IMG/VR virus record: IMGVR_UViG_3300023116_000053
Location: 1-57,698 of that record
Length of the DNA: 57,698 nt
Source of the DNA: a virus
Direction: 5' to 3' (one strand)
In this document: piece after piece, positions 6,800 to 36,722 of the stretch
Position numbering within the stretch: the first letter of the stretch is position 1
Layout: the number at the start of each line of letters is the position of its first letter
Notes under the pieces: model-generated
Seen by the model: only the letters and a program-made list of their open reading frames with translations
The model's database searches: none
What the model was told of the DNA's origin: nothing
Program-made: the position numbers and the translations under genes

Positions 6800-7787
6800 T
6801 GAGTAATTCCTTCTGATAACTTGTGATTAAAAAATATTCCAACTCTTCATTTAATTTCTCTGGCTTGTCTAACACTATCTTGTCTTTCTTTTTATCTGAA
6901 CCAACCAATCTATTTTTAATCGAAGAATACATTCTTTTAAACATTTTCCAGATATTAAAAGGCACATTGCCAATCGCCACAAGTATATCTTTCCAATCAA
7001 ACAAGCCTTGTACAATATCTGTGTATTCTTGTCTTCTAGTTGTTAATGCTCTGATTAATTTTATTAACAAAGATGCCACAAAACAAGTAATTGCTGCACT
7101 AATCAGCATTGTGTAACCTGGAGATATGCTCCACATAATTTGAAAAATAACTTTTAAACCACCCCACAAACCTTTTCCAGCCAACCCTCCTACCGATTTT
7201 AATCCTGCGAAAAATGTTGGAAATATTTTTTGAACGCCCCACCAAATCCAATCTCCTAACTTCTTAGCGATAGCAATTATAGGCTTTAATAAATATTTAT
7301 ATACGCTTGTGTTTGTAATTTTATAAACTAATGTCCCAACAACACCAACGGCAGACCAAAACCATGTAAAATTAAACGCTCTTCTTAACTTCAATAACCA
7401 TTCGTCTAAAGTAAAATCAGGTTGCTCTTCAGTTGCTTTTTTTAGTGCTTCCATAGCAATATCGTTGTTGGCTTTTAATAATTTAGTTAGTATTTGTTGT
7501 ACACAACCTTCATCAATGTTTCCATTTTCATCTTTGCAATTATTTTTTATTTCATCTACAATGTTTTTTATTTCAGGCAAAGTTTCTTCTCTTTCTATTC
7601 TAAGTAATTCATTTTGCAAATTATCAGAAAAGCCCCTAATTGCTTGCTTTACTTCTCCTTCCCCACTCTTTGCTTCTTTGATTATTTGTTTTCGCAGGCT
7701 TGATTTGCAATAAGCATAGTCTGCAACGAGAGTTAGTTGCATTTCTTTTAATATTTCTTGTTTTATTTCTTCTTTGAGTCTTACCAT
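6792..7787 (-). CDS. Tagged membrane protein, unknown function
   Basis: About 331 residues from the ATG at 7787, which has GGAG nine nt upstream and is better than the TTG five codons earlier. The N-terminus (MVRLKEEIKQEILKEMQ) is the shared cargo-type tag with an ILKE step. Residues of roughly 15-130 are helical and charged. Then come hydrophobic segments: FTWFWSAVGVVGTLVY, a Trp/Gly-rich stretch (DWIWWGVQKIF; GLAGKGLWGGLKVIF) and a clear transmembrane span LISAAITCFVASLLIKLI. The tail is basic (KNRLVGSDKKKDK). No family was recognised. A packaged protein able to enter membranes during DNA injection is an inference. It overlaps both neighbours by a few bases. Confidence 0.6.
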   Translation of the reverse strand: MVRLKEEIKQEILKEMQLTLVADYAYCKSSLRKQIIKEAKSGEGEVKQAIRGFSDNLQNELLRIEREETLPEIKNIVDEIKNNCKDENGNIDEGCVQQILTKLLKANNDIAMEALKKATEEQPDFTLDEWLLKLRRAFNFTWFWSAVGVVGTLVYKITNTSVYKYLLKPIIAIAKKLGDWIWWGVQKIFPTFFAGLKSVGGLAGKGLWGGLKVIFQIMWSISPGYTMLISAAITCFVASLLIKLIRALTTRRQEYTDIVQGLFDWKDILVAIGNVPFNIWKMFKRMYSSIKNRLVGSDKKKDKIVLDKPEKLNEELEYFLITSYQKELLSA

Positions 7788-8689
7788 TTTTTGCAACTCC
7801 AATATCTTGCCTTTGTTTTTGGACCTGGATTGTCACACTTGTGTCTTGCCCTAAATGATTTTCTGCGCTTAGGATTAGATTTTTTAATTTTCATATTTGG
7901 GTCGCCAAATCTAACTGTTTTTATTTTGTCTCCATCTTTTACGCAGACCTTAAACTTTTTATTTTCTCCAGAAGTTCTCACAGGTTTATTTAGTTTGTCA
8001 CCTTTTTTGCAGGGCTTGCTTTTTTCATCTAATTTTTTCTTGTTTTTTTTCATGCTTTTTTTGAGTCCACCCCATTCATCTTCAAACTCACCACTTTTCC
8101 ATTGTTCGTATTCATATTCTATAATAAGTTGATAGGCTTTTATTAAAAAGTCACCTTCTTTTGTTTTCCAATGGTCTTTCTTTAATTCTTTTATGTATAA
8201 ACTGTGAATCTGTCTAGGTGTTTTACCTTCTCCTGTTGCGAAAGGGGCTAAGACTAATTTAGCAATTCTTCCAATCTTTGTTTTGGACGCCAAAAAAAGA
8301 GTAAAAGCATCAAGAATGTTGCCAATAGTTCCTAAAAACTTTTCAGCGTAAGACATTAATTTAGATATTGTATTGCTCATGCCGTGTACATAGTCAGCAG
8401 GCCACCCTAATTTTTGAGCAATTCTTAGTACTTTCAAAGGTTTTGTCCCGTCTTGTCCAAGCCAATCAATGTTAACTTGATGACCATCTGTTTCCTTTAA
8501 GAATCTCTTGAAATCAGAATATTTTTCATTAAAATCTATAGGCTTGTCGCGGAATGTATTCCAGCCATACTTTCCAGTATATTGACCAAGCCATTTTAAT
8601 TCTCCCAATATTTCTTTTTCTTCTTGGATAATTCTTTGTTCTCGAATTTCCAACAATATTTGCCTTTTCAGTTCTTTTTTGATATTCAT
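7781..8689 (-). CDS. Tagged protein with C-terminal DUF5872-like domain
   Basis: A 302-residue protein. Residues 1-26 (MNIKKELKRQILLEIREQ...) are nearly identical, in protein and DNA, to the start of the next upstream gene, although the rest is unrelated. The last 60 residues (KVCVKDGDKIKTVRFGDPN, SNPKRRKSFRARHKCDNPG, ARYWSCKKW) are the basic, Cys/His-containing domain called DUF5872 that recurs in phage proteins. The middle has helical, partly hydrophobic stretches (residues about 108-150). Function unknown; a DNA- or protein-binding role in the virion is inferred from the basic tail and the cargo-type tag. Confidence 0.65.
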   Translation of the reverse strand: MNIKKELKRQILLEIREQRIIQEEKEILGELKWLGQYTGKYGWNTFRDKPIDFNEKYSDFKRFLKETDGHQVNIDWLGQDGTKPLKVLRIAQKLGWPADYVHGMSNTISKLMSYAEKFLGTIGNILDAFTLFLASKTKIGRIAKLVLAPFATGEGKTPRQIHSLYIKELKKDHWKTKEGDFLIKAYQLIIEYEYEQWKSGEFEDEWGGLKKSMKKNKKKLDEKSKPCKKGDKLNKPVRTSGENKKFKVCVKDGDKIKTVRFGDPNMKIKKSNPKRRKSFRARHKCDNPGPKTKARYWSCKKW

Positions 8690-8754: not shown

Positions 8755-10572
8755 TCATTTATATAAATCTCTTTCTGTAAGTATTTTCGACCAACCAAAA
8801 CTTGATGTAGATATATATCTTATTGGATTTTCAATTAGTTCTATTGTCTCTAAATATCTCGGAACAAAGAAGACTGCCTGTTCTTTCTCTGCTAGATGAA
8901 TTATTCCTTCTCCGTGGTCATGGAAAGCAAAGAAGCCAAGTTCTGTAAGTATTTTCGACCAATTAAAACTTGATGTAGATAGTCCACGACTAAGGCTCCA
9001 TAAGTCCATTATTTTAGTGTCTTCTGGATTTGCGCCCACCTTATCTATAAAATATTCTCTGCCACTTTGAATAATACCTCTAATGTTCTTTTTTTGGTTG
9101 CCAAGAAGTTTTGCAAAATGTTGCGCTTTTTCTATCTCCTTTTTTGTTGAAGACAAAACAATCCCAAATTCAGTTGTCATAAGTGGCCTTAAGATGGCAA
9201 TTTCTTGAGTATATTTAGCAAAGGAGATAATTTGATTAATTTTGTCCCAAAAATATGTCATAACATCTTCAAAGAGAAGATAAAAATTTGAGATAAATTG
9301 ATAAAATTCAAATATTTCTTTTTCTGATATTATTTTGGTTTCTAAAAATTCACTCACAAAGTCATAAAATTTATAATACTCTTTTATAAAATCTAATAAA
9401 TCTGAATATACAATATCACTGTGGGGTGTGCCAAATTCTGAATACGAATCTTTAAATTGTTCTTTATTTTCAATAAATAATTTTTTTAGACTTCTTTCAA
9501 CATTATTGGGGTGAGCAAAAACGCTACTCATATCTATTCCATTTTCTACAATATAATGATTAATATATGACATAAAATCATCGGTTCTGAAATCAACTTC
9601 TTTTTGCCTACCAAACATACTTTTTAACCTAGCAAGTGTTTCATCTTTAACTTCATCTTTGCCTATATGAAAAATCAAATTTTGAAAATTGTCTTCTGGT
9701 TTGAAAATAAGCATATATTTAGCATGTCCTCGAAATGGCAATCTTCCTCTTTTAATTTGACTGAAAATTTCTTGACTCAAGGGGTAAGAATAAACACCCA
9801 GTGGAGTATTGTACCTACTGGATGGGTTGAACATCATATCTGCGGAACCTTCTATATCTGTCATGTGAATATAATACCAAGGATTGCCCGGTCTTTTTAC
9901 ATAGCCACTCAACTTATCTAATAAATTTTCTTTTGGATTAAAATGCCTTTTTCTTGCTAATTGTCTATTTCTTTTTTCGCCCTCTCTCCAACCCTTATCT
10001 CGGTTGTCTACATTATTAATTTGATATACAACTTTATCAATATCTTTATATTTTAATTTCAAATTACCTTTGTATGCGCCATCAACAAATGAAAGCCTAT
10101 TTATTACTTCAAAATCTCTTATTATTTTTCTGATAATCTTGCCAATTCTTCTTTCAAGCAGTAAAGAAACTTCTTCTTGGTCAATCTCGCCTTCTTTTTC
10201 TTTTACTTCTTTATTATATCTATACAACAGAAACTTTGTACCTAGAGGGTATTTTTTGATAGCAATCTTTAAAAAAGCCAATATTGTATTATTATTATAT
10301 TGTATTTCATCATCACCCACCCCAACATCACCCGAAAACCAATCAACTGTTTCGTCATAAAATGCCTTAGACAGTTCTTTATAATCAGCAAAATCGAATT
10401 TTAATGAATATTCTTCGTGAGTTGCAAGCATATCTGGAATTTCTTGCCTCATAACAGTTGCCATTCGATAAATCATTTCATCTTTGTCTAAATTTTCTTT
10501 TTCTTCTTGGATAATTTTTTGTTCTCGAATTTCCAACAATATTTGCCTTTTCAACTCTTTTTTGATATTCAT
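8755..10572 (-). CDS. Tagged ADP-ribosyltransferase-like protein, paralogue 1
   Basis: A 605-residue protein with the same tag and leader as the gene after it. Residues 232-264 (PWYYIHMTDI ... TPLGVYSYP) and 562-569 (EKEQAVFF) are spaced like the His, Tyr and Glu motifs of H-Y-E ADP-ribosyltransferases, with H236 as the candidate first residue. The GFFAFHDHGEGIIH segment just before the Glu motif is shared with the next gene. Residues 30-220 are an extra helical region absent from the paralogue. The last 19 residues contain a duplicate of an upstream 13-codon piece, so the C-terminus may be rearranged. T4 Alt is a packaged ADP-ribosyltransferase, which makes this role plausible, but the fold is inferred only from motif spacing. 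Confidence 0.6.
   Translation of the reverse strand: MNIKKELKRQILLEIREQKIIQEEKENLDKDEMIYRMATVMRQEIPDMLATHEEYSLKFDFADYKELSKAFYDETVDWFSGDVGVGDDEIQYNNNTILAFLKIAIKKYPLGTKFLLYRYNKEVKEKEGEIDQEEVSLLLERRIGKIIRKIIRDFEVINRLSFVDGAYKGNLKLKYKDIDKVVYQINNVDNRDKGWREGEKRNRQLARKRHFNPKENLLDKLSGYVKRPGNPWYYIHMTDIEGSADMMFNPSSRYNTPLGVYSYPLSQEIFSQIKRGRLPFRGHAKYMLIFKPEDNFQNLIFHIGKDEVKDETLARLKSMFGRQKEVDFRTDDFMSYINHYIVENGIDMSSVFAHPNNVERSLKKLFIENKEQFKDSYSEFGTPHSDIVYSDLLDFIKEYYKFYDFVSEFLETKIISEKEIFEFYQFISNFYLLFEDVMTYFWDKINQIISFAKYTQEIAILRPLMTTEFGIVLSSTKKEIEKAQHFAKLLGNQKKNIRGIIQSGREYFIDKVGANPEDTKIMDLWSLSRGLSTSSFNWSKILTELGFFAFHDHGEGIIHLAEKEQAVFFVPRYLETIELIENPIRYISTSSFGWSKILTERDLYK
8773..8812. repeat. 40-bp duplication at the 3' end of ART-like gene 1 (copy 1)
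   Basis: Matches 8941-8980 with two differences and in the same frame, so STSSF(G/N)WSKILTE occurs twice in the protein. The second copy lies just before the stop codon, suggesting a tandem recombination event that rebuilt the 3' end. Confidence 0.75.
8941..8980. repeat. 40-bp duplication at the 3' end of ART-like gene 1 (copy 2)
   Basis: Partner of 8773-8812. This is probably the original copy, because it precedes the GFFAFHDHGEG motif that the paralogous gene also has. Confidence 0.75.
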
Positions 10573-14378: not shown

Positions 14379-14732
14379 CTATATTTTTTTCCTAAATTTA
14401 TTTAAGTCTGCTTCTGTTGCTCTTGGAATACGAGTATTAAATTTTTTTTCTAAATTTTCAATATCTTCATCACTAACAGGAATTAATTTATGTCTACACT
14501 TATAACCCCCAGCCCAATCAATAACTGAATTTCCGTTCTTGTTGACAATTCTTGATAATTGTCTGGCAGTCACGATTTTGTTAACCAATGCAGCACACAA
14601 AGCCCTGTTTCTTGAATCTTGTGGACCGGCATAAAAAAATTTTTGGTCTGCCAACCACTTTCTCTCAGACAAAATATTTTTAACTATATTGAAAACTTGT
14701 TCTTCTAAATTTGTTTTGTTGTTATCTTTCAT
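14379..14732 (-). CDS. Stand-alone MuF C-terminal-like domain protein
   Basis: 117 residues from the ATG at 14732, which forms an ATGA overlap with the methyltransferase stop; a longer upstream frame would lie inside that gene. The sequence FYAGPQDSRNRALCAAL, TARQLSRI, and WAGGYKCRHKLIPV (about residues 33-88) follows the C-terminal domain of MuF-type minor head proteins, where an 'SR..C' stretch is followed by 'W.G..CRH...PV'. In other phages this domain is fused to a head-morphogenesis protein and in some cases to effectors. Here it is free-standing, next to a methyltransferase and the gp13-like gene. A minor capsid role is inferred. Confidence 0.6.
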   Translation of the reverse strand: MKDNNKTNLEEQVFNIVKNILSERKWLADQKFFYAGPQDSRNRALCAALVNKIVTARQLSRIVNKNGNSVIDWAGGYKCRHKLIPVSDEDIENLEKKFNTRIPRATEADLNKFRKKI

Positions 14733-15703
14733 TTGTTTAAATCTTTTAATGCTGCTTCGCCAAACTTTCGTGCCATAGATACTACAACTCCATTGCCAAT
14801 CGCTCTTATTAACGCATCTCGCCACTTACAAGCGGTTAATACGCCAACTTTTTTTGGTCTTTTGCCTTTTTCTTTGACTTGTTTTATATTTGTAATTTCA
14901 TTCCTATCCCATCCGATTTTTGTTTCTATTGCCAACAATGCTCTGCTTTTTTCTTTTCCGCGAAATTGATTGGCTTCGTCAATATCAAGAAAAATATCTT
15001 TCCAGGCTTGAGGTATTTCTTCCATACCCATTTTGTCAGCAAACTCCCAATAATAGCCTTTTCTACCAAAATGTTTATAAAACCACCTGTTTGCTCTCCT
15101 GTCGCAAGCAGCGTACCATTTAGATTCAGTTGCAGTAATAGCAGGACAAACGGAATCACCCAATTCGTAATATCTTGTATCATACTCTCTATATGTTTCT
15201 GGCTCTGGGAATGTTCCGCCTACAATTCTTTGCCTTTTTTGCTTGGGTTCTTCTGCAAATTGTGCTGCATTATACTTTGTTCCCCAATCATCTTCTCCAG
15301 GCTCTCTTGTAATTACATTTTCAACCCATAACACTTTTATGTTCGGCCATACTTTAGTAATATCTAGCGACCATTTTAACAAATCATCTTTGTATTTTCC
15401 TGTTACTATTTGGCCAGAACCTTTTTTTGCCGGAGAAAGTTTTTGACATGGAGGGGATGCCCAAACAGCCGTAAAATCCGACAAATCAACATCTCTAACA
15501 TCTGCCATAACAGAATTTCCGCTACCAACATGAGTCGAAAGCCAATGCGCGACAGGATTTAATTCAAATCCCACACACTCCCATCCAGATTGCTCTAAAC
15601 CAAGCCTAGCAAACCCAGCACCATCAAATAGAACTGCTGCTTTTGGCTTTCGATTGACTTGTTCGTTCATGTATTTTCTCCAATTTTCCATAATCAACTT
15701 CAT
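14729..15703 (-). CDS. C5-cytosine DNA methyltransferase with N-terminal tag
   Basis: A 324-residue enzyme of the DNA C5-methyltransferase fold. Motif I is AVLFDGAGFARLGLEQSGW (residues 23-41), motif IV ASPPCQKLS (82-90, catalytic C86), motif VI VENV (127-130), and motif X AIGNGVVV (about 301-308). It transfers a methyl group from S-adenosylmethionine to cytosine; the recognition sequence cannot be read. The first 14 residues (MKLIMENWRKYMNE) are a Trp-containing version of the cargo-type tag, also found at the start of the basic LRV-related protein at 46743-47426. No partner restriction enzyme is present, so protection of phage DNA or modification of the host is more likely than a restriction-modification pair. 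Confidence 0.85.
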   Translation of the reverse strand: MKLIMENWRKYMNEQVNRKPKAAVLFDGAGFARLGLEQSGWECVGFELNPVAHWLSTHVGSGNSVMADVRDVDLSDFTAVWASPPCQKLSPAKKGSGQIVTGKYKDDLLKWSLDITKVWPNIKVLWVENVITREPGEDDWGTKYNAAQFAEEPKQKRQRIVGGTFPEPETYREYDTRYYELGDSVCPAITATESKWYAACDRRANRWFYKHFGRKGYYWEFADKMGMEEIPQAWKDIFLDIDEANQFRGKEKSRALLAIETKIGWDRNEITNIKQVKEKGKRPKKVGVLTACKWRDALIRAIGNGVVVSMARKFGEAALKDLNK

Positions 15704-15770: not shown

Positions 15771-15802
15771 AAAAAAAAGAGAGAGGTTTTGACACCTCTC
15801 TC
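15771..15802 (-). terminator. Rho-independent terminator after the major capsid gene
   Basis: On the minus strand a perfect 9-bp stem GAGAGAGGT/ACCTCTCTC encloses a 6-nt loop and is followed by eight U residues. It lies about 30 nt past the major capsid stop codon, the expected end of the head operon. This is the strongest terminator in the window. Confidence 0.92.
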
Positions 15803-15833
15803 CATAAAATTGATAACCAAACTATATTTTGAT

Positions 15834-17627
15834 TTAGTTACCAGACTCGCCAAGCAATCCTCGTACAATTACCAAACCATACATATCTGGTTTGACCATT
15901 TTTTTCGCATAGCGAGTACGAACGATTTTACGAGGCGTAAAGTCTTCGGTTCCAAGAATCGTGGGAGATACTTGCAGTGGAACATAGGGAGCATAAACAT
16001 ATCCGCTTTCGAGGAAAGAACTACCTTTTCGTCCTACAAGAATCAAATTGCGAGGAAAATATGGGTCAACATATACATCCCACTTCTTAGAAATAGAACC
16101 AACTTTTTCACAACCTACAGTTCCAGTGTTGACATCAGAAGTCACAGTGGAAGATTTAAATCCATTGGTTTGTTCTACAATCGCAGCAACTTCAGGGCCA
16201 CAGACAAAGAAGTTTGCACCTCCACGCAGAGTCTTACGGTGCATTAAAGCACTCAGGTCTTGAATTGTGTGGAGCAGAGTTTCATTCCACTCAGAAACGT
16301 TTCCAGTGAAATCTGGAGCCTTCGAACTTGCTCCGATTTCCAGACCAGTTTCGCGATGCAAGAACATACCAGGAGAACGAGACCAGTAATATTTACCACA
16401 AGTTGCTCCATTAATAAGGTCAACAATGATTTCTCGGTCGATTTCCAAAGCGATTTCTTCAGACAGAATCTGAGTTAATTCAACTTCAGCATCAAGGTTG
16501 TGATAAGCACTCAAGTCTTCACCCAATTCTGGGGTCCACTTTGCTTTGAGTTTTTTGCCAATTGCAGTAACTGCAATCGAATCGATATTTAAGTCGATTT
16601 CGGGAATGTCGGGTTCGTTTTCCAAACCCCAAACATCTTGACCTTGAATAGAGCCGAGCGCACCACCATTCTGGAAATTGTCAACAATCGGAAAAGTAAA
16701 CTCAAGTTTCGGACCAGTTGTTCCTGAAAGTTGAACAGGGGTTCGAGACCCATCCCAAGACACATTGAAAAGCAACAATTCGGTCTTTCCAGATCCAGAA
16801 TATTGAGTCAATCGTCTTGCTTGCACATCGTTAGCAGCGAACAAACCATGCCCATCAGAACTTGACACATGAATGGAAACAAGGTTTTCGTCGTTAAAGT
16901 AAGCACCAGCAGAAGTGTCATCCAAATCACTTAAAGTAATTTTAGTAACAGCAACATTTGTAGTTCCCGAAACAAATTCAGGGTCAAAACGACAAAGTTT
17001 CATCAATTCTTCTTCTAATACAGCATTTCGTGTGACTGTACCTGGGGTGTTTACTACACCACCGTATGTTCCAGAAAGAACTGTGGTAGTGTTTACTTCT
17101 TTCGAGCCAGTAGGAGAAGAGTACCCTTGGTTTAAACTGAAAAAGCCAAGTTCTCCATTTTGTTCGGTAAGTAAAGCACCTCCAGTAATTTCTGAACCAA
17201 GTCGTCCTTGCCCGTATACAGACTGATTAAGGTCTGAATATAGACGCTGATAATCTTCCCCGTATCCAGCAGGACGAGATAGTTTAAAATCCAAGAAGAA
17301 AATCAATCCAGAAGGAAGAGACATGGGTTGTACAGAGACTAAGTTGTTTGCAATTAGATCTCCAAAGACTCTTCGAACGAGAGGGAACGCTACAGAAGCA
17401 AAACCTTCTACGTCACCTCCCCCTGCTCTAGCCATAACCGATGCTTCTTTCAAAAGTTGCTTTGCTTGGTTTTCAAGCAAGACGGCCATGTTTTGTCGCG
17501 ATGTTTCAGTATCCAAACCTTCTAAAAGTCCGGTATTTTCCCACTTATTCAAGAGGGCAGCACTTTCTTTAAGCTTTTCGTTTTCGCGACGAGTAATGTT
17601 TTTTGTTAATGAACCTAAAATACTCAT
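15834..17627 (-). CDS. 23: Major capsid protein, T4 gp23-like
   Basis: A 597-residue protein with the gp23 plan: an N-terminal helical pro-region of about 61 residues, then SVAFPLVRRVFGDLIANNLVSVQPMSLPSGLIFFLDF (about residues 78-114), matching the gp23 segment after its cleavage site. Later come ELGEDLSAYHNLDAEVELTQILSEEIALEIDREI and a C-terminal YVPLQVSPTILGTEDFTPRK. LLKE61/A62 is a good candidate cleavage site for the gp21-like protease encoded upstream. It forms the hexamers of the icosahedral head. A strong terminator follows. Very confident. Confidence 0.95.
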   Translation of the reverse strand: MSILGSLTKNITRRENEKLKESAALLNKWENTGLLEGLDTETSRQNMAVLLENQAKQLLKEASVMARAGGGDVEGFASVAFPLVRRVFGDLIANNLVSVQPMSLPSGLIFFLDFKLSRPAGYGEDYQRLYSDLNQSVYGQGRLGSEITGGALLTEQNGELGFFSLNQGYSSPTGSKEVNTTTVLSGTYGGVVNTPGTVTRNAVLEEELMKLCRFDPEFVSGTTNVAVTKITLSDLDDTSAGAYFNDENLVSIHVSSSDGHGLFAANDVQARRLTQYSGSGKTELLLFNVSWDGSRTPVQLSGTTGPKLEFTFPIVDNFQNGGALGSIQGQDVWGLENEPDIPEIDLNIDSIAVTAIGKKLKAKWTPELGEDLSAYHNLDAEVELTQILSEEIALEIDREIIVDLINGATCGKYYWSRSPGMFLHRETGLEIGASSKAPDFTGNVSEWNETLLHTIQDLSALMHRKTLRGGANFFVCGPEVAAIVEQTNGFKSSTVTSDVNTGTVGCEKVGSISKKWDVYVDPYFPRNLILVGRKGSSFLESGYVYAPYVPLQVSPTILGTEDFTPRKIVRTRYAKKMVKPDMYGLVIVRGLLGESGN

Positions 17628-19333: not shown

Positions 19334-19792
19334 TTAATTTGTCGTCCAGCATGTAATATCAGCGTGTTGAACAGTTACATTTGTTGAGTCAGAAATATTT
19401 CTGACTCTCATCTCCATCAAATCATCTTTGTTTATTTTAAAAACATAAATGTGGCTTGAAGCTATAGGTATTGTTTTGTAATTAAAAGAAAAAACTGAAA
19501 GAGGTTGCAAGACATTGTTTAAAAAAATACCAAATTCAAAATCTACGTTGTTAGTTGCTGCTAAGATTTGTGCATCTAAATAACAAACCACAGTCTTCTG
19601 AGTGTTATAAGTGTATTTTAAACTTTTGTTGTCACTGTGCAGTTCAAACCCATAATTACTTGAGTTTCCATCCCAATTTGAAACATTTATTACTGTCCAT
19701 TCGTTAAGGTTGGATATTGATGTAACATCAGTATTGTTGGAAAAGTTAATTTCTCCAACTTGTCTATTATTAGATGGAATGTGTATTGTCAT
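19334..19792 (-). CDS. Beta-sandwich (jelly-roll-like) structural protein
   Basis: A 152-residue protein with alternating strands (NEWTVINVSN, KTVVCYLDAQILA, DFEFGIFLNNVLQPLSVFSF, SSHIYVFKINKDDLMEMRVRNIS, NVTVQHADITCWT). This strand order and the 'FEFGIFLNN' strand recall TNF/C1q-like trimeric domains common in phage fibres and decoration proteins. It overlaps the upstream hydrolase-like gene by 4 nt. A head-fibre or receptor-contact role is inferred; no family was recognised with certainty. Confidence 0.55.
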   Translation of the reverse strand: MTIHIPSNNRQVGEINFSNNTDVTSISNLNEWTVINVSNWDGNSSNYGFELHSDNKSLKYTYNTQKTVVCYLDAQILAATNNVDFEFGIFLNNVLQPLSVFSFNYKTIPIASSHIYVFKINKDDLMEMRVRNISDSTNVTVQHADITCWTTN

Positions 19793-20463
19793 TTTTTTTC
19801 AAACGGTCTAACTATAGACCAATACCTCTTTAGTCCATTGTTGTTGCTTTTGTTTTTATACCAATAGTCGTAACCTGCACCATTAGCACTAGGAGATGCT
19901 GCCCAAGTATTTAAAGCGTCAACATTATTAATTTTTATATGAGGTTCTTCGGCAACTATAAACCAATGATGGGGTAAGTTGTCGCCATAACCTATGACGC
20001 CGACATCCCCACCTTGTGCATCGTTAGGGTTTGTAATTATATTGTTTGCCCAACCTAAATTTATAAAAGCATCGCAAAGGCCATTTTTTTCTTGTAAGGA
20101 TTCTTTTTTTAAGTTTTCTATTTGTGTATTTGTTATCTTGTCTTCTAATTTTAGTAACTTTAGAGCATGTATGATGCACCAAAGGCTTGTCCCTAAGCAA
20201 GCGACTGGAATTTTCTCGTCTTTCTTTAAGGGAGAACCTTCATGTGGGGCAGCAGGATAACACCACAGAACTCTCTTTCCATTCCATTTTGTGTCTGTGG
20301 CTTGGTTTTCTTTTACTTCTTTGTGTAATTCTTTTATAGGAGGGGGGCATCCGTGGTCTAATTCAAGAGAGTCAGTGGAATACTTTAGTTTATCTTTGAA
20401 GTGTTCCTCACAATACATTTGAACTTTTACCAATGCAACTCTCCAATCATCACTTGTTGTCAT
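19789..20463 (-). CDS. Papain-like (NlpC/P60- or CHAP-type) hydrolase candidate
   Basis: A 224-residue protein. PVACLGTSLWCIIHAL (about residues 86-101) could hold the nucleophilic Cys at a helix start, and GGDVGVIGYGDNLPHHWFIVAEE (about 152-174) has the 'GD(V/L) ... H' layout of papain-like amidases, where the His follows a strand. Such folds cut peptidoglycan peptides or amides. Other folds are possible, since the match is only by motif order. It lies between the bS21-like gene and small structural genes, so it could be virion-associated or an endolysin. No other obvious endolysin is seen in the window. Confidence 0.45.
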   Translation of the reverse strand: MTTSDDWRVALVKVQMYCEEHFKDKLKYSTDSLELDHGCPPPIKELHKEVKENQATDTKWNGKRVLWCYPAAPHEGSPLKKDEKIPVACLGTSLWCIIHALKLLKLEDKITNTQIENLKKESLQEKNGLCDAFINLGWANNIITNPNDAQGGDVGVIGYGDNLPHHWFIVAEEPHIKINNVDALNTWAASPSANGAGYDYWYKNKSNNNGLKRYWSIVRPFEKK

Positions 20464-20662
20464 TTTTTTTCTTTTTTTCCAAGAAGATTGTGCGTTTTTT
20501 TTCCATTCTTTTTTTGTCAGATTTTTTTACAAAATACATTTTTTCTTTATATTTTTCCAAACATCCACTTTTGTAAACTTTCTTTTTAAATCGTCGTATA
20601 AGACTTTCAGATGTTTCATTTGTTTTCAATTGAACTTCTGCGTTGTTACTGTTTATTAACAT
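20450..20662 (-). CDS. rpsU: Ribosomal protein bS21 homologue
   Basis: A 70-residue, strongly basic protein. VQLKTNETSESLIRRFKKK followed by YKSGCLEKYKEKMYFVKKSDKKR and a Lys-rich tail matches the full length of bacterial bS21 (about 71 residues): the N-terminal 'E(n)E....LRRFKR' strand-helix, the 'G.L...R.R..Y.KP..KR' middle and the basic end. bS21 sits on the 30S platform near the 3' end of 16S rRNA and affects mRNA start selection. Phage-encoded bS21 genes are known from marine and huge phages. The gene is embedded among head genes, starts after AAGGA, and overlaps the hydrolase-like gene by 14 nt. Confidence 0.85.
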   Translation of the reverse strand: MLINSNNAEVQLKTNETSESLIRRFKKKVYKSGCLEKYKEKMYFVKKSDKKRMEKKRTIFLEKKKKNDNK

Positions 20663-20674
20663 TTTTTTTCCTTT

Positions 20675-21040
20675 TTAATTTTTAAAAAACATGCTTATAT
20701 CTACACCTGAATCATTAAAATCTAAACCGGGGAATCTTTTTGAAGCAGATACTCCGCTTGTGTCAGATAGAGACTCGTTAATTTCTTTCGATGGGGTTAC
20801 ACCGTCAAACACGTCAACACCGTTGTACATATCTTTGCTTAAATTAGATAAGTTTTTGACTTTTTTGTTTGGTATTTGACTTATTTTTTTACTTTTGTTT
20901 TCGGATATAACTTCTACATTATTAATTGCTAAAATTGTTTCAGAAATAACATTTGAAAGTAAATTTTCTTCCATTATCATTTCTTTTATACATTCTTTAA
21001 TGAGAGGTTTTACTAATTTTACAAAATCTTTTTTTTTCAT
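20675..21040 (-). CDS. Prohead core-like small protein downstream of the protease
   Basis: A 121-residue protein beginning with a helix FVKLVKPLIKECIKEMIMEE, a version of the shared tag, followed by LLSNVISE. The tail contains GVDVFDGVTPSKE and SGVDISMFF, a repeated GVD-(V/I) theme near the C-terminus seen in small phage proteins next to prohead proteases. Its place after the protease and before the scaffold fits a prohead core component (compare T4 gp67/gp68), but no direct match to those is visible. Expected to be degraded or packaged. Confidence 0.6.
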   Translation of the reverse strand: MKKKDFVKLVKPLIKECIKEMIMEENLLSNVISETILAINNVEVISENKSKKISQIPNKKVKNLSNLSKDMYNGVDVFDGVTPSKEINESLSDTSGVSASKRFPGLDFNDSGVDISMFFKN

Positions 21041-21058: not shown

Positions 21059-21670
21059 TTATTTCAAAATATCAATCAAAGCAAGTTGATATTTTTCTTT
21101 ATAGGACAGTTTTCTGTTGCTGTATGGAATCTTACATTCTTTCATTAAAAACGCATCTCTAGTAGAAGGTTCTTGAACGATGTCAAAACAAACTAATTGG
21201 AAGTCTTCTTCCACAATAATACCCTCTTTTGTTTCTTTGACTGAACCTAAACCTCTAGAGGAAATTCCAAATTTTATATTATCTTTTATAAGACCTTCTA
21301 AAATCTGTCCAGATGGGTGATGTTTGAGGATTCTTAATTTCCCCTTCAAATCTTTTCCTTCCCACCACAAGTCTTCAACAATGTGACAAACATTTTTTAG
21401 ATCGATTTCTGCTGAGTCTGGATGGTTTAACTCGCCCACTGCTCTATTTTCTTCTATGACTTTTCTATAATTTTCAACTTCTCTCTTGAGAATGGATTCA
21501 CTGTATACCCTTCCATTTCCATTTTTTTCATCTGCTCTTTGGACAGTTCCAGTCAAATAGATGATTCCTTCGTTTTTTATTCTATATTTTTCTGATTCTG
21601 TCAAATAATCTTGACAGATTCCGCTAGGGCATAAATTATAGAATTCTCTCAATAATACTTTCTTATTCAA
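21059..21670 (-). CDS. 21: Prohead core protease, T4 gp21-like
   Basis: A 203-residue serine protease of the prohead family. It has NGNGRVYSESIL (residues 50-61), the His motif GELNHPD (79-85, H83) and the Ser motif FGISSRGLGS (134-143, S137 or S138). T4 gp21 is 212 residues. It cuts the capsid protein, scaffold and internal proteins at L-x-E or I-x-E sites during head maturation. Start is TTG at 21670 with AAAGG nine nt upstream. A terminator lies just upstream of this gene, so it probably has its own promoter within 21671-21700. High confidence. Confidence 0.92.
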   Translation of the reverse strand: MNKKVLLREFYNLCPSGICQDYLTESEKYRIKNEGIIYLTGTVQRADEKNGNGRVYSESILKREVENYRKVIEENRAVGELNHPDSAEIDLKNVCHIVEDLWWEGKDLKGKLRILKHHPSGQILEGLIKDNIKFGISSRGLGSVKETKEGIIVEEDFQLVCFDIVQEPSTRDAFLMKECKIPYSNRKLSYKEKYQLALIDILK

Positions 21671-21699: not shown

Positions 21700-21732
21700 A
21701 AAAAAACCAAGTATTTTATAGTAAATACTTGG
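21700..21732 (-). terminator. Rho-independent terminator upstream of the protease gene
   Basis: On the minus strand CCAAGTATTT and AAATACTTGG form a 10-bp perfect stem around a short loop (21707-21732), followed by seven U residues (21700-21706). It ends transcripts carrying the terminase, portal, small membrane protein and the 19-codon ORF, and separates them from the head operon. Confidence 0.88.
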
Positions 21733-21757
21733 CAGGATTCATTTAGGTTGTTTTTTA

Positions 21758-21779: not shown

Positions 21780-21839
21780 TCAGCAACCTTCTTTGCAACG
21801 ACGAATCGTTGGCATCATGAATTTCTTTGAAATTCTCAT
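21780..21839 (-). CDS. 19-codon ORF behind a perfect Shine-Dalgarno sequence
   Basis: The minus strand reads TAAGGAGGTGATAATG, and the frame continues MRISKKFMMPTIRRCKEGC then TGA. The peptide is short, basic and has two Cys. No other start in the window has such a strong ribosome-binding site; it overlaps the stop of the preceding membrane protein gene. The ORF may encode a real small peptide, or translation may be incidental to an RNA that base-pairs with 16S rRNA. No homologue is recognised. Confidence 0.5.
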   Translation of the reverse strand: MRISKKFMMPTIRRCKEGC

Positions 21840-21852
21840 TATCACCTCCTTA
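21840..21852 (-). promoter_or_regulatory. Perfect anti-anti-Shine-Dalgarno site
   Basis: The minus-strand sequence TAAGGAGGTGAT is exactly complementary to the conserved last 12 bases of bacterial 16S rRNA (ATCACCTCCTTA). Spacing from GGAGG to the ATG is five bases. It also contains the TAA stop of the upstream gene. Confidence 0.85.
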
Positions 21853-22140
21853 TTGGGTAAGATTCAGATTTAAACCACAATCTGTGAACAACTTATCTAG
21901 TATATAATTGACGCCAGAACTTAAGAATCCTAAACACAGTCCTGTAACCCAACTTCCATCGAAGTTAAACAAAATTGTTTTACCGCTGATGGACCATATT
22001 AGTAAGCCTGTCCAAAAACCCATACACATACTACATTTAAATAGATACCATTTTGGTCGAAAAATCTTTAAAATTTCTGAATACAACAATATTTGCGTCA
22101 AGCCAAATGAAACTAATGAAAAAATCGCAATTTGAGACAT
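21850..22140 (-). CDS. Small membrane protein, DUF1360-like
   Basis: A 96-residue protein with hydrophobic segments at about residues 4-22 and 43-52 and a weaker one near 65-82. The motif FKCSMCMGFWTGLLIW (about 34-49) matches the 'C..C.GFW.G' pattern of DUF1360-type small membrane proteins that are common in phages. Function unknown. It is expressed with the portal/terminase block and its stop overlaps the strong ribosome-binding site of the following tiny ORF. Confidence 0.65.
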   Translation of the reverse strand: MSQIAIFSLVSFGLTQILLYSEILKIFRPKWYLFKCSMCMGFWTGLLIWSISGKTILFNFDGSWVTGLCLGFLSSGVNYILDKLFTDCGLNLNLTQ

Positions 22141-22749: not shown

Positions 22750-23581
22750 GCTCTTTATACTCAAAATTTTCTTGTGTTTCTTTGATAATATTAGCCAGAT
22801 TATAAAATTTCATAATTGTTGTAATTAAATTTTCATCAATCTTTTGTTTATGCATTTCTTGCAACATTTTATAAGCACTGTTTGTCTGTTTTTTGATTGT
22901 GTCGTCTGAACACAATTCTTTGTCTTCTAAAACATTCAACAATTCCTTTTTCAGAGTATCAATTTCTTCATTTAGAAAACTCTTTAGGGAGAGAGAATTG
23001 TCGGAAAAAGAAAATATATATTCTTTTATTAATTTTTTTTGATTCTCCAGAAGAGTGTTGGAGTATGTCTGGTTATATTTTTGTAAAAATTTTCCGACAA
23101 CAACTCCATCTATTTTGTTTTCAAAGTTATTAGAAGTTTCTTTTTGTTTCATCTCTTCTATAATTTTTGTTTCTAATATAACATTGTTTTTTATACTACC
23201 TGTCTTATTGAAAATTTGATATATCGACGCAATATTTTTATAGTTCGGTACAAACTTTGAATACACTTGTTTGCCTATTTTTTTGTTAATAAAATTTAAC
23301 AAATCTGTTTTTTCTTTGAAAAGTTTCTTATGGTCTAAGTAAGAATATTGTTGCTTGACTTCGTTAAGAATGCCTTGGCAAATTTTTTCAGGCTCACCTT
23401 GCACATTCAATATTTGCTTATATAGTCTATATTCCTTGTGAAGTTCTCTTTTTTTATTGAAAAAATTCATTATGCAAGAAGTGATTTCTTTCTTTCTTTC
23501 TTTTTCTTTAGTTTCAACAAACTCTCTCACTAAAATATTAAACAGAAAGACTGGATTTCTTTTTTTGTTATGTTTAGTCAT
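22733..23581 (-). CDS. Helical protein downstream of the portal, unknown
   Basis: 282 residues from the ATG at 23581, which overlaps the portal stop by 8 nt; a longer frame upstream would lie inside the portal gene. It is almost entirely charged helix, with Lys/Glu-rich stretches (ETKEKERKKEITSCIMNFF; KFLQKYNQTYSNTLLENQKK; IDTLKKELLNVLEDKELC). No motif was recognised. Position between the portal and a small virion-type gene suggests a head-assembly factor. Confidence 0.55.
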   Translation of the reverse strand: MTKHNKKRNPVFLFNILVREFVETKEKERKKEITSCIMNFFNKKRELHKEYRLYKQILNVQGEPEKICQGILNEVKQQYSYLDHKKLFKEKTDLLNFINKKIGKQVYSKFVPNYKNIASIYQIFNKTGSIKNNVILETKIIEEMKQKETSNNFENKIDGVVVGKFLQKYNQTYSNTLLENQKKLIKEYIFSFSDNSLSLKSFLNEEIDTLKKELLNVLEDKELCSDDTIKKQTNSAYKMLQEMHKQKIDENLITTIMKFYNLANIIKETQENFEYKEHEDKN

Positions 23582-25607
23582 CTTTTTTTGCCTTAAATTT
23601 TTTATCCAACTTTTCAACTATTTCGTACAATCCATTGTTTATGTCTGCTATTTGCTTTTCTTCTTTTGAAAAATCTTCCATTATGCCCTTGCTAAAAGAA
23701 CCTAATTCACTCCTCCCAGGTATTGATGGATGATTCTTTTTTTTGTTTTTATCAGGGTCTCTTTGTGAACCTACAGGTCTTATAGAGTCAATTTTTGCCA
23801 TAGATTTAAGATTTTGTTGTATTCCTGACCTCTTTTCAGATTCTTTTTTCGGCGTATACAACTTGCCTTTTGATTTTGTTGTCGTTGTTTGTCCATCCTT
23901 ATATGTCATTTTAAAGCCTGCTTTGTTGACATTTACTTTGTGGGGTTCATCTCTCTTGGCTGGCTCTTCAGGAGAAGCCAAGAGAGTGTCGTCAACATCA
24001 TCTCCTACACCTCCTTCGAAACCTCCCCCAAAGGCTGATTCCAAATCAGAACCCGGAGGCGACACTGTTATTTGTTCTTCCCCAAAACCTGGACTCAATG
24101 GCCCGCCTGCTTCAGAACCAAACATTCCTCCACCACCTGTCATACTCTCTTGCTCTAGAGCCTGTGCGATCTTATCTATCTCTAGTTCGTATTTTTTGTC
24201 ATTAATGATTTCTCTTTGGTTGCGAATAAACTCTTCTTCGCTAAGTCCAAAAAAGTTAACAGCAACCCATCTTTTTGAAAAATAACCTTCGGTCGCAGCA
24301 GAAGCGACATCGAATTTAGTTCTCCAATGCTCTAATTCTTGTATTGCTGCTAATTTTGATGGATTAGCAAGGCTCAATTTGAAAGATATTAAGTCATCTT
24401 TTCTAAAGCCTAATGTATAAAGATGAATAATTCCCATCTTTTCTAACTCATTTACTACAGAACGCTGTATCATTTGGATTGTTTTTGAAAATAAAATGTC
24501 TTTTTGTGCCAGCGATGTTTTATCTTCAACTGCACCACCTTCCGGTATGATATAAGAAGCAGGAATTTTAATCGCTGCCATCATTTCATCTCTTAAAAAC
24601 TTAACATCGTCTACATCCCCGGTGTATTGACCCCCAGCCAAACTATCAATCCTTGTGTTACTTTGTCCACGAACTGGAATTATGTAGTCATCTTCAACAC
24701 TAAGAGGATTATAACGCAAATCAACTTGCCCAGAATCAGGGTCTACGATTTTACTACCTTTTAGTTCTTTTTGAAACTGCAAAACATACTGTTCGACTTC
24801 TTCGGGTGGGATATTACCAACATCTAGATAAAAAACTCTTCTCTCAGGGCTTCTAACGATTCTATAACTCATCATAGCGTTTTTTAAAAGGTCGTATTGT
24901 CGGAATATTCTTCGAGCAGGCTCGAAAACACTTTGGCCATAAGGGGCAAATCTATCGTCACCTAAAATTCTAAAATGACAAATTTGCCAATCTTCTAAGG
25001 TTAAACCTCCTGAATTCCATTGAAACTGAACATAATGTGGGTTGTCTTTGTCTTCACCTTCTAGTCTTTCCACTTCTCTTGAAGGCAAGCCAATGACGTG
25101 GGTGATTCCTCTATCTTCATCAATGTCTAAATAAAGAAAGAAATCTCCATATTTGCACATCGTTCTTGTCCAATGAAAGAGATTTGCTTCTATATTTAAT
25201 ACATTGTAATAAAATTCATCTAGAATTGATTTAATTTCTTGATTTCTGCAATCAATCTTCAGCATTTTCTCTAGTTCATTGCAGGATGTTATCTCCGTAG
25301 CATAGATGTCCAAAGCACTGCCAAGAATTGGCTCATATATCATCATGTCAAAATCAGCATATCTTTCCGCTCTCTGTTGTTCGTACACAAGTTTCGCTGA
25401 TTGGTGCAACCACATATCTTTTTGAATCTTTTTAAATGGTGCGCCAGAAGCAGACTTAAAATCGTACTTCTGCATGTCAATTCTACGCTCTCTTCGATAA
25501 AATTGACGCCTTCTTTTGGTGATTGGACCGGAAAAAAGTCTAGTCAAAGCACGATAGAGAATGTTCTCTTGATTTCTTGTATTTTCGCCTTTTCTCTTAT
25601 TAAACAT
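23574..25607 (-). CDS. 20: Portal protein, T4 gp20-like
   Basis: About 677 residues from the ATG at 25607, three nt before the terminase stop region; a TTG seven codons upstream overlaps the terminase. Conserved portal segments are visible: DFDMMIYEPILGSALDIYA (near 85), LHWTRTMCKYGDFFLYLDI-type sequence (near 150), LLKNAMMSYRIVRSPERRVFYLDVGNIPP (near 240), and VDDVKFLRDEMMAAIKIPASYI (near 340). It forms the dodecameric ring for DNA entry and head initiation. The C-terminal 170 residues are Gly/Pro/Lys-rich and less conserved. Follows terminase, as in T4. Confidence 0.92.
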   Translation of the reverse strand: MFNKRKGENTRNQENILYRALTRLFSGPITKRRRQFYRRERRIDMQKYDFKSASGAPFKKIQKDMWLHQSAKLVYEQQRAERYADFDMMIYEPILGSALDIYATEITSCNELEKMLKIDCRNQEIKSILDEFYYNVLNIEANLFHWTRTMCKYGDFFLYLDIDEDRGITHVIGLPSREVERLEGEDKDNPHYVQFQWNSGGLTLEDWQICHFRILGDDRFAPYGQSVFEPARRIFRQYDLLKNAMMSYRIVRSPERRVFYLDVGNIPPEEVEQYVLQFQKELKGSKIVDPDSGQVDLRYNPLSVEDDYIIPVRGQSNTRIDSLAGGQYTGDVDDVKFLRDEMMAAIKIPASYIIPEGGAVEDKTSLAQKDILFSKTIQMIQRSVVNELEKMGIIHLYTLGFRKDDLISFKLSLANPSKLAAIQELEHWRTKFDVASAATEGYFSKRWVAVNFFGLSEEEFIRNQREIINDKKYELEIDKIAQALEQESMTGGGGMFGSEAGGPLSPGFGEEQITVSPPGSDLESAFGGGFEGGVGDDVDDTLLASPEEPAKRDEPHKVNVNKAGFKMTYKDGQTTTTKSKGKLYTPKKESEKRSGIQQNLKSMAKIDSIRPVGSQRDPDKNKKKNHPSIPGRSELGSFSKGIMEDFSKEEKQIADINNGLYEIVEKLDKKFKAKKDD

Positions 25608-25609
25608 TT

Positions 25610-27211
25610 TTAACCCACTATAATCCAAGGTTTATGGATATTACGTTTTTTTTGCATATTTATTCTCTCTTCTAAATATCTGCCAGTCTTATGTATGTCA
25701 TGCATGTTAGACAAATTTGTATTAAAATTCTTTCTGGAAACTAAAATATTACTTAACAATGCTCTGTTTACTTCGACTTCTTTTTGTCCTTTAATTAGTG
25801 CTGTATCTCTCACCCAACAAGCTATTGCACAAGATAAAATTAGGTCGTCGTTGGAACCTTTTTGTGCCTCTGGCTTTCCATTTCTCCATATAAAAGTCTT
25901 TAATTCATCGACAAACCTAGAAGAAGGAGAAAACAACACTCTGTTTCTAATGTATTCTTCCAGTTTAGATATGATAAGAGGTCTTGTTTTAACTGAAGTT
26001 GTGAAGCCTGGAATTGCTGTCGAATCAGATAACGCTTGAACAGGGTCTACATATTCGTGAGTACCTTTTTTAGAAAAATAAAGGTGTGGGTAGCCTAAAC
26101 TCAACATATCTTGGGCTACTGCAATCCCTATGTTGTTGTTCTCTACAACCAACATCGGCTTGCCATAATCATTCGCTACAGAGTTCAAAAAAGAAACAAA
26201 ACTATCTCTTCCTAACTTTCCTTTGTATTCAGCAACAACATTCACTTCTTCAAGATTTATAACTATAATTGTTGAAAAGTCTTCTCCATCTCCCCTAGAT
26301 ACATCTACCGTTATAAGGTATCTGTTACTAGGGTCATAATCTTCCCATATCCAATACTGCCTTTTGTTTCCAGTCTTATATAACGGTTCTTTGATTAAGC
26401 CTTCTAGCCTCTCTATGTCTTTTGAAGAAATTACAGTCGCACCAGAAGCATTAAATGAACATAATAATTCTTGAGCAATTGCTCTTTCTGAAAGGTTTTT
26501 CGTTTCTAATTTGAACCAATCTTCGTCACGCTCTGGATGGACATCCCACATTAATTTTGTAAGCAAAAATTCGTTATCACCGTTTTCTGCCTCAACGCAC
26601 ATTCTGTGAAAAAAATTGCCTGTTCCTGCCGGTGTACTTAAAATAATAGCAGAACCACCTGTTGACAGTGTAGAGTATGCAGAAGTCCATATGTCATCCA
26701 TCAGAGAGCCAATATGAGCGCATTCGTCAACAACTAACAAAGAAAGAGCCTCAGAGCGACATGCATCTTCTGACGTACCTTCAGCCAATATTCCAGAACC
26801 ATTTTTTAACCAAAGTTCATTTTTATTGTTAATGTCTATATTGGAAATTAACAACCATTGAGGTATTTTCTCAAAAATCATTTTAACTTTTTTAATTATG
26901 TTCGCTGCCTTACTCTGTTTCGTAGCCAATACACTTACAACCTTATGTTGACGAAACAAAATAAACCAAGCGACATAACCAGCAACAATTGTAGAAATAC
27001 CCAACTGTCTTGCCTTCAAAACAATGTTGAAGCGATGGTCCCTAAAATTATCCAACAAATCATCTTGAAAATCATAAGTATCGAAAGGTATCAGCCCCTT
27101 CTTTTGATGGACAATCTTGGCGTAAGTTTTTAAGAAATACACAGGGTCTCTACCACAGCGCATTATTTCTCTTTTTATTTCTTTTTTCGTGAGGCGTGTT
27201 TTTTTAGACAT
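25610..27211 (-). CDS. 17: Terminase large subunit, T4 gp17-like
   Basis: A 533-residue packaging ATPase-nuclease. Walker A-like KARQLGIST is at residues 66-74, Walker B LLVVDECAH at 158-166 (D162-E163), and the coupling motif STPAGTGN at 192-199. The RNase H-like nuclease half has ITVDVSRGDGEDFS (300-313, D303) and LVVENNNIG (354-362, E357). It pumps DNA into the prohead and cuts the concatemer. Length is slightly below T4 gp17 (610). The small subunit was not identified with certainty; the next gene upstream is a candidate only by position. Confidence 0.94.
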   Translation of the reverse strand: MSKKTRLTKKEIKREIMRCGRDPVYFLKTYAKIVHQKKGLIPFDTYDFQDDLLDNFRDHRFNIVLKARQLGISTIVAGYVAWFILFRQHKVVSVLATKQSKAANIIKKVKMIFEKIPQWLLISNIDINNKNELWLKNGSGILAEGTSEDACRSEALSLLVVDECAHIGSLMDDIWTSAYSTLSTGGSAIILSTPAGTGNFFHRMCVEAENGDNEFLLTKLMWDVHPERDEDWFKLETKNLSERAIAQELLCSFNASGATVISSKDIERLEGLIKEPLYKTGNKRQYWIWEDYDPSNRYLITVDVSRGDGEDFSTIIVINLEEVNVVAEYKGKLGRDSFVSFLNSVANDYGKPMLVVENNNIGIAVAQDMLSLGYPHLYFSKKGTHEYVDPVQALSDSTAIPGFTTSVKTRPLIISKLEEYIRNRVLFSPSSRFVDELKTFIWRNGKPEAQKGSNDDLILSCAIACWVRDTALIKGQKEVEVNRALLSNILVSRKNFNTNLSNMHDIHKTGRYLEERINMQKKRNIHKPWIIVG

Positions 27212-33558: not shown

Positions 33559-36500
33559 TCAACTATTCACTTTAGCGAACCCTCGCACATTATTTATTTC
33601 TATTACAGAATCAACAACATCTTTGAGAATTTCCATATGACTGATTAAAAAAACTGTTTGGAAGTTTTCTTTAATCATTTCGAGCATTTGTATGAAGCCA
33701 TCTAGGTTTTCAATGTCTAGAGCAGTCCCAGGTTCATCTAAAATAAAAATATTGCTTTTGGGCAAACTAGAAACATTAAGGAGTGCTAGTCTTAGAGCCA
33801 TAGAAGCGAGTGATTTTTCAGCCCCTGAACATCCTTCGATTGGTCTTGGGTTGTATTTCGGGTGCTGAATAAAGATTTCCAGTTTTTTATTTTCTGCTTC
33901 TAGAAAAATGTCGAAATCAACAATGTTGTGCAAGCATTTTCTTATTTCTTCGTTGATTTGAGACAATTTATCTTTAATGATTGAAAATGGAATCCCATTT
34001 GGGTGATAAGCCTTGGTTAACAATTCATTAGCAGAGTACTCAATCAACTTGTTTTTGTATTTATTTTCTTTTTCTTTCATTGCACTTAGTTGCTCTTCTA
34101 ATTTTCCTTTATTGGAGTGAAGTTCTAAGTGTTTAGCCTCGCAGTAAGACAAAATATCATATTTTTTTCTCAATTCACCTTCTAAATCTTTGATTTCATT
34201 TGACAATTTCTTGTTATTTTCCAGAGTGACTTTGTATTTCCAATATTCGCTTTCTTTTTTCAACAATTTTTCAATATTTTCTTCAATTTTGGCGCGTTCA
34301 ATGCCTTTTCTTTCCAAAACAAGACGTTTCTTTTCAACACCTGAACTCAATTGTTGTTTCTTTTTGAGTGATTCTTGAAAAATCTTAAAATATTCATCAG
34401 TTTTTTGTTGTTCTTCGACAAAATCAACATTACTTAGGTTTTTTTCTTGTTCTTTGAGCAATCTTAAATTATTTTCCAGCAAATTAATTTCTTCTTTTGC
34501 GTCAAAAGCATTCTTTATGAACTTGCACTGTGGATATTGTGTTCCACAAGGCACTTCGGAGAGCAATTCTGCGCTTTTCTTCTTTAATTTGTACTTTACC
34601 TCCTCTTGTTCGATTTTGTTTCTTATTTGCGTTATTTCGACGAATTTTTTTCTATTAATTTTTTGTTTTCTTTCGATGTCGCCAATGTCGATAGAATCTA
34701 GCAATTTTGCGTATTCTTCAATCATATTTTTGTCATCTGAGATTTCGTTCTTCAATTCTTCTTGAGATTTCATGTTGCTTTTTAGCAATTGTTCTTGCTT
34801 TTGTTTGTCTTGGTCTACAATATTGATGTCTATGTACTCAATATTTGTATCTATTTTGCTTTTTTTTGCTTGCAGTTCGCTTTTTATTGATTCAAGAGAC
34901 TTTCTTAATTCATCGCATCTTTCTTTTTGCTCTCGGATGTTTTCATTGTTTTTTGCTATTTCATCTTCAAACTCAACTTTTTTTTCATAAAAGTTAACAT
35001 TCTCATCTTCTTTCAGATAGCCTTTTAATTCTTTTAAATTGCTTTTTGCACACTCAAACTTTTTATCAAAAAATTCTAAATCTAAAAACCTTGCTATTGT
35101 TTTTTTTCTGTCCGTTGGTCCTTGTTCGATGAACACATGAGATTTGTTTTGTGCTGCCATCGAAGACAATAAAAAATCTTCTCTTGTTCCAATAAATTTT
35201 TGTATTTCTTCGTCTGTGATGTTTCTCTTTTCTTGAGTTTTATTGTAAACTTCTCCTGTTTTTGTATTTTCAATTGTAAAGTCAACTTCAACTCTTGCTT
35301 CCAAAGAGTCCTCTTTTTTAATGTTTTTAAGGTATTTTTCAATTTTTCTTTCAATATTCAGTACATTGTCACCAATTTTAATTTTTACCTTAACATCACC
35401 CAAAGACTTGTTTTCGTTGACATAGTGAATGTTTTTACGAGCCTGTTTGCTATCAGAGTTAAACATACCCAACAACAGACTGTCTAGAATGCTGGATTTT
35501 CCCGAATAGTTTTTTCCAAAAATTCCAACGACACCTTTTAAGTTTTCTAATGATAACTTGTTGTCCGTCCCATAATTGTATAAATTGTTCCATTCCATCT
35601 CTAATATCTCAAAGTAAATGTCGCGCAGGGCTTCGTCTTTACGCAATGCCTCTTGGTTGTATTGTTCGTTTAGAATGAAAATCTTTTCTTTTACTTCTTC
35701 TGAAATATTAAAATTCTTTAAGAAGTCTTTCAGTATTTTCTCTTGAACTGTTATTTCTCTTATGTTTTCATATCTGCTGCTTTTTATGTCAACATTTTTA
35801 GTTTTATTTTTATGCTTGTTGACAAACTTTACATATTCGGGACGATAGTTGTTTTGAATAAGAGAGGTTAAGTATTGAATTTTATCATAAGAGAGGTTTG
35901 CTCTCGGCATCAATCTTACGCGAGAACCTACAGGTATATCCATATTTTTTGGCAATTCACCATTTTCATCAATTGGGATGGTTATAAATGGCTTATGATG
36001 AGGCACAATGACATGCTTAACCATAGAAATTCTTTTGTCTTTAATTCTCCACACCAAAAACCCTTTGTCGTTTGTTTCTCCAAAGTTTTGTTGGATTGTT
36101 GAGCCTGAATACCTTTTTCTCCCATCCTTTCCAACAATTTGGTTAGATTTGTGTATGTCGCCCAAAAAAGCATAATCAAAAAGTTGAAAATCTTTTTCTT
36201 CTCTTTCTCCCTCTTCAAAAACATAACCAATGTCTGTCTCTACACCAGTAACAGAACCATGATACAAACAAATATTGATATAATCATCATTTTCGGATGG
36301 CACACTCCAATTTTCTTTGTCAAACGGAGACCAAGCAAACAGTTTAAAATTATCTACAATGTATTCTTTTGATTCTCTAGAATAAAAAATGTTGGGATGA
36401 TTCATTTCTTTGATGATAGGAGTTAACGAATCCATCCTTTGCAAGTTTTTTAGATTGCCATCGTGATTTCCAGGCAAAATATAAAGAGGGGCAATGTTGG

Positions 36501-36705: not shown

Positions 36706-36722
36706 TTTTTTCCCTTTTTTTG

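Follow-up and report, generated by a model that had tools for sequence, protein, structure and literature searches.

Why does a gene for a ribosomal protein stand among the genes that build a phage head? The question is raised by IMG/VR virus record IMGVR_UViG_3300023116_000053, from an uncultured T4-like phage, whose whole stretch of 57,698 nucleotides (nt; positions 1 to 57,698) was analyzed here and is referred to below as the window. An open reading frame (ORF) of 70 amino acids (aa) at positions 20450-20662 on the minus strand encodes a genuine member of the bS21 family of ribosomal proteins. With moderate confidence, we propose that this bS21, encoded in a late head-gene cluster, is made with the capsid proteins, exchanged into 30S subunits, and there maintains or redirects initiation on the late mRNAs of the phage, and that a perfect Shine-Dalgarno (SD) sequence nearby serves a separate micro-ORF; the steps past the presence, position, and conservation of the gene are ones that we infer.

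Identity and surroundings of the bS21 gene

The 70-aa ORF matches the Pfam profile PF01165 (Ribosomal_S21) with an E value of 1.2e-9 and 38.1 bits (cut-off, 27) and the NCBIfam profile TIGR00030 (S21p) with 35.7 bits (cut-off, 28.95), as well as PHROG 21469, “ribosomal protein S21.” These matches bear out an earlier note on this DNA, which had recognized a full-length bS21 pattern in the sequence. PF01165 is matched only once in the whole record, by this ORF, and the protein is unchanged in two near-identical IMG/VR contigs. Sequence comparison with the PDB retrieved almost exclusively bS21, and the window protein is highly divergent from the solved host proteins; its C terminus is rich in lysine and of low complexity. 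A genome scan for the host bS21 turned up only a single, distant bacterial gene (37% identity over 43 residues), which is useless for naming the host, and a scan of the 57.7-kb window for tRNA and Rfam families gave no match.

The AlphaFold model of the protein, built from 15 phage sequences, has three helices (residues 18-32, 34-42, and 47-69) and a mean predicted local distance difference test (pLDDT) score of 82.8. The eight top-ranking Foldseek matches of this model are all small-subunit ribosome entries, led by the Chlamydomonas chlororibosome (probability 0.99), and the matched chains are, judging from their names, presumably bS21 homologues. Fold matches in the PDB other than ribosomal chains are at chance level, and the VIA Z scores of 5.3 to 6.0 are middling. 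The failure to superpose on bS21 that the earlier note had named as grounds for dropping the assignment did not materialize, and the modeled protein appears to have the bS21 fold.

The gene and its neighbors, all on the minus strand, are as follows.

25610-27211, minus strand: terminase large subunit (TerL; PHROG 2, E 4.9e-43)
23574-25628, minus strand: portal protein (PHROG 213, E 4.5e-58)
21850-22140, minus strand: 96-aa protein with no function assigned, kept upstream of the micro-ORF in relatives
21841-21851, minus strand: perfect SD of the micro-ORF, AAGGAGGTGAT, overlapping the stop codon of the upstream 96-aa gene
21780-21839, minus strand: micro-ORF of 19 codons, MRISKKFMMPTIRRCKEGC, apparently a divergent member of the conserved KWMLQPVRRCCKGS family
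21706-21733, minus strand: terminator-like hairpin in the gap between micro-ORF and protease (11 pairs, then a T run)
21059-21670, minus strand: prohead core serine protease (Peptidase S77; PF03420, E 8.8e-30; PHROG 207)
20675-21040, minus strand: 121-aa protein with no function assigned, between protease and bS21, in the same place in most relatives
20450-20662, minus strand: bS21 (70 aa, ATG start; PF01165 and TIGR00030 above curated cut-offs; three-helix model)
19789-20463, minus strand: 224-aa protein with no function assigned, whose start overlaps the 3' end of bS21 by 14 nt
15834-17627, minus strand: major head protein (PHROG 138, E 1.2e-61)
15778-15803, minus strand: terminator-like hairpin 3' of the major head gene (10 pairs, then a T run)

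Transcription would run in the order TerL, portal, several unassigned genes, micro-ORF, protease, 121-aa gene, bS21, 224-aa gene, three further genes, and major head protein. The gene therefore does lie among head genes, as the earlier note had it, with TerL, portal, and protease upstream and the major head protein downstream; the late-gene position that the note found notable is confirmed, although phage bS21 commonly occurs there. Since bS21 is co-oriented with the capsid gene, late co-expression of the two is likely. The hairpins at 21733-21706 and 15803-15778 would bracket the protease, bS21, and the capsid gene into one unit, which is only suggestive: both are consensus matches, and the region holds 6 terminator-like sites versus 8.5 expected in shuffled sequence. 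The term “operon” for these genes is likewise used for an arrangement that we infer from the sequence. A DNA methyltransferase-like gene (14729-15703, minus strand) adjoins the major head gene.

The arrangement recurs in many uncultured relatives and in a single cultured cyanophage. Among records reached via bS21 or the protease, 15 of 21 encode bS21 above the cut-off, usually with the protease and the same unassigned gene ahead of it. The closest relative by capsid protein besides the near-identical contigs (73% identity), designated L043, has bS21 in the same place and is the only divergent relative in which a homologue of the 224-aa protein was found. In LR756508, a 484-kb uncultured phage, bS21 is found at position 169725, just ahead of the capsid gene.

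Proposed role of the phage bS21 and its alternatives

Late remodeling of the ribosome in favor of phage mRNA is a published hypothesis for bS21 phages (PMC9723584) and a plausible one for the window phage; bS21 among head genes is known from aquatic phages, which it probably enables to alter host ribosomes late in infection. The protein would be produced alongside the capsid proteins, would swap into host 30S subunits late in infection, replacing host bS21, and would there sustain or favor initiation on weakly SD-led late phage mRNAs, or shift it toward them, when much capsid protein is needed. Phage bS21 and head genes are transcribed together (PMC9723584), and a pelagiphage bS21 enters Escherichia coli ribosomes (PMC6375957).

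In Bacteroidia, SDs go unread because the 16S rRNA tail is held by bS21, bS18, and bS6, and Tyr54 of bS21 stacks on A1534 (PMC9976891, PMC9723584). An ungapped BLAST alignment of 56 residues, with which MAFFT agrees, pairs F60 of the window protein with Y54 of F. johnsoniae bS21, which apparently puts an aromatic residue at the Tyr54 position. This suggests that the window bS21 may keep hold of the 16S tail in the manner of its Bacteroidota counterparts, and hints weakly at a Bacteroidota host. Few of approximately 66 phage bS21 proteins are aromatic in this column, those of the window and its copies among them; some others have His or Trp nearby.

The SD signal of the window genes is weak but present, with a mean of -4.1 kcal/mol versus -2.2 kcal/mol for a mock window, and places the window between its SD-using relatives and the SD-depleted Flavobacterium phage immuto (-0.4 versus -3.6 kcal/mol); these averages are rough, as the first ATG was taken as the start codon. 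The bS21 gene itself has a weak SD (AAAAAGGAAAAAAA-ATG, -4.9 kcal/mol). No clear tie between an aromatic residue 54 and SD use emerged: the window and L043, its nearest relative by major capsid protein (MCP), which has a His beside the position, are among the weaker SD users, yet so are relatives without the residue. SD depletion like that of the Flavobacterium phage is also seen in LR756508.1, making a Bacteroidota host possible for that phage.

Several observations weigh against the role proposed here. Identity to solved bS21 is low, at 23% for that of F. johnsoniae, and the E value of the best Foldseek match, 0.11, is not significant by itself. The F60-Y54 pairing falls in the lysine-rich C terminus, where the alignment is uncertain, and in most relatives the column has no aromatic residue. 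Finally, in the single published experiment on this point, in vitro translation by E. coli ribosomes carrying a pelagiphage bS21 fell to approximately 5% of normal (PMC6375957), an outcome equally compatible with a general block and with selective translation.

That last result is what makes host shut-off conceivable, in which phage bS21 lowers the translation of host mRNAs and other factors spare those of the phage. We consider it improbable, because E. coli was a foreign ribosome in that experiment and expression with the late head genes would be late for a shut-off. Another possibility, doubtful but deserving more weight, is that phage bS21 merely tops up a loosely bound, fast-exchanging protein and keeps 30S subunits active late in infection with no selection of phage mRNAs. 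Viral ribosomal proteins do tend to be those readily exchanged between ribosomes (PMC6375957), and truncation of bS21 in F. johnsoniae makes ribosomes poorer at initiating on mRNAs that lack an SD (PMC9976891), so that the supply of bS21 alone could help a phage with weak-SD genes. However, the window protein diverges strongly from solved host bS21, and published trees separate phage bS21 from that of hosts (PMC9723584); a change in specificity would be compatible with both. The regular company of the prohead protease and core genes and the short, very basic sequence would also suit a bS21 that has decayed or taken on another task and has lost ribosome binding, such as a virion protein or an RNA-binding prohead protein; with the bS21 core kept across the approximately 66 divergent phage copies and purifying selection reported for viral ribosomal-protein genes (PMC6375957), this seems most improbable.

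The 16S-complementary site and a conserved micro-ORF

The perfect 16S-complementary site that the earlier note placed about 1.2 kb from bS21 is present upstream of it: AAGGAGGTGAT occurs once in the window, with no second match when one mismatch is permitted, and its duplex is worth -17.7 kcal/mol. The connection to bS21 that had been drawn from it was not supported. The site is the SD of the micro-ORF, the SD of bS21 itself is weak, and in relatives that keep the micro-ORF its SD is mostly of ordinary strength (median, -8.0 kcal/mol); the presence of bS21 is thus not tied to a perfect match. A direct link between the two was therefore rejected: the SD serves the micro-ORF, and its strength is not conserved.

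Relatives carry a small ORF at the equivalent place, KWMLQPVRRCCKGS in L007 and L014, KWMLQPVRRCCRGS in L049 and L053, and others elsewhere. These ORFs, of 16 to 34 codons, share the core KWMLQPVRRCC[KS]GS and lie upstream of the prohead protease. The degenerate pattern MLQPVRRCCxG matched at least 120 IMG/VR stretches, compared with a chance expectation of <1 estimated from its information content. In most of the 80 loci read, the prohead protease follows the micro-ORF, as a rule by no more than 100 nt; of the 33 loci that extend at least 4.5 kb further downstream, 31 contain bS21 there. Residues within the pattern were fixed by the search, but those flanking it were free to vary; among distinct cores, Trp nevertheless precedes the Met in 67 of 72, and Ser follows the last Gly in 69 of 72, encoded by six different codons, which speaks for a translated, selected peptide. 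We assign the more divergent window ORF to this family by its position and by the M-P-RRC-G pattern that it has in common with the others.

The micro-peptide had no match in PHROGs, nothing credible among 50,697 phage records or in any cultured phage searched, and no mention in the paper texts searched, so the strongly conserved micro-gene is apparently undescribed. It could encode a head-assembly peptide, or it could be a leader coupling translation into the protease; both are possible. A bolder scheme would make the micro-peptide and bS21 one module, in which, against the background of weak-SD genes in this phage, the near-perfect SD is best read by bS21-short ribosomes with a free 16S tail, so that translation of the micro-ORF senses the bS21 supply and tunes the downstream terminator, the protease, and bS21; we hold this to be highly unlikely. 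In 27 of the 80 loci (L070, L084, and L126, among others), the stop codon of the micro-ORF is succeeded by a G+C-rich hairpin (GCGGGTNRYGCCCGC type), with stems that vary between loci. Should the micro-gene prove genuine, a head-cluster peptide in a sizeable group of uncultured T4-like phages awaits a name; it is a fresher lead than bS21 and merits separate study.

Elsewhere in the window, a 1056-aa protein (33559-36729, minus strand) with metallophosphoesterase and AAA/SMC domains resembles a fusion of SbcD and SbcC (T4 gp47 and gp46). In two neighboring genes (7781-8689 and 8755-10572, minus strand), the leaders and opening codons are almost identical (ATGAATATCAAAAAAGA), suggestive of a duplication.

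Comparison with known systems

Among annotated phages, Flavobacterium phage immuto matches best by TerL (42%), and no bS21 was found in it. A tblastn search of cultured phages with the window bS21 returned nothing, though the cultured Microcystis phage Mel-JY01 encodes one, so the search lacked the sensitivity needed for a protein this short; an alignment of mixed bS21 sequences proved too diverse to serve as a scan query. Mel-JY01 (PP395634, RpsU annotated) has the same order on the same strand as the window: TerL, portal, protease, one unassigned gene, bS21, unassigned genes, and capsid gene. Unlike in the window, no KWMLQPVRRCCKGS-type micro-ORF was found upstream of its protease, and its bS21 is divergent.

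The Pelagibacter phage HTVC008M also is a myophage encoding bS21, and its protein has been shown to enter ribosomes (PMC6375957), whereas pelagimyophage bS21 is said to belong to no specific gene cluster (PMC7029224). A location beside head genes has been described for Bacteroidetes phages (PMC9723584): in clades a to e of the freshwater Bacteroidetes bS21 phages, as in the window, bS21 lies in a cluster with TerL, portal, prohead protease, and MCP and has an aromatic residue at the Tyr54 position. In those clades, bS21 is on the strand opposite the head genes, whereas in the window bS21, the protease, and the capsid gene are all on the minus strand. Phage bS21 (PMC6375957) and its place beside head genes (PMC9723584) are already established, and the window adds one more case, which extends this known trait to a lineage where bS21 and the capsid gene share an orientation.
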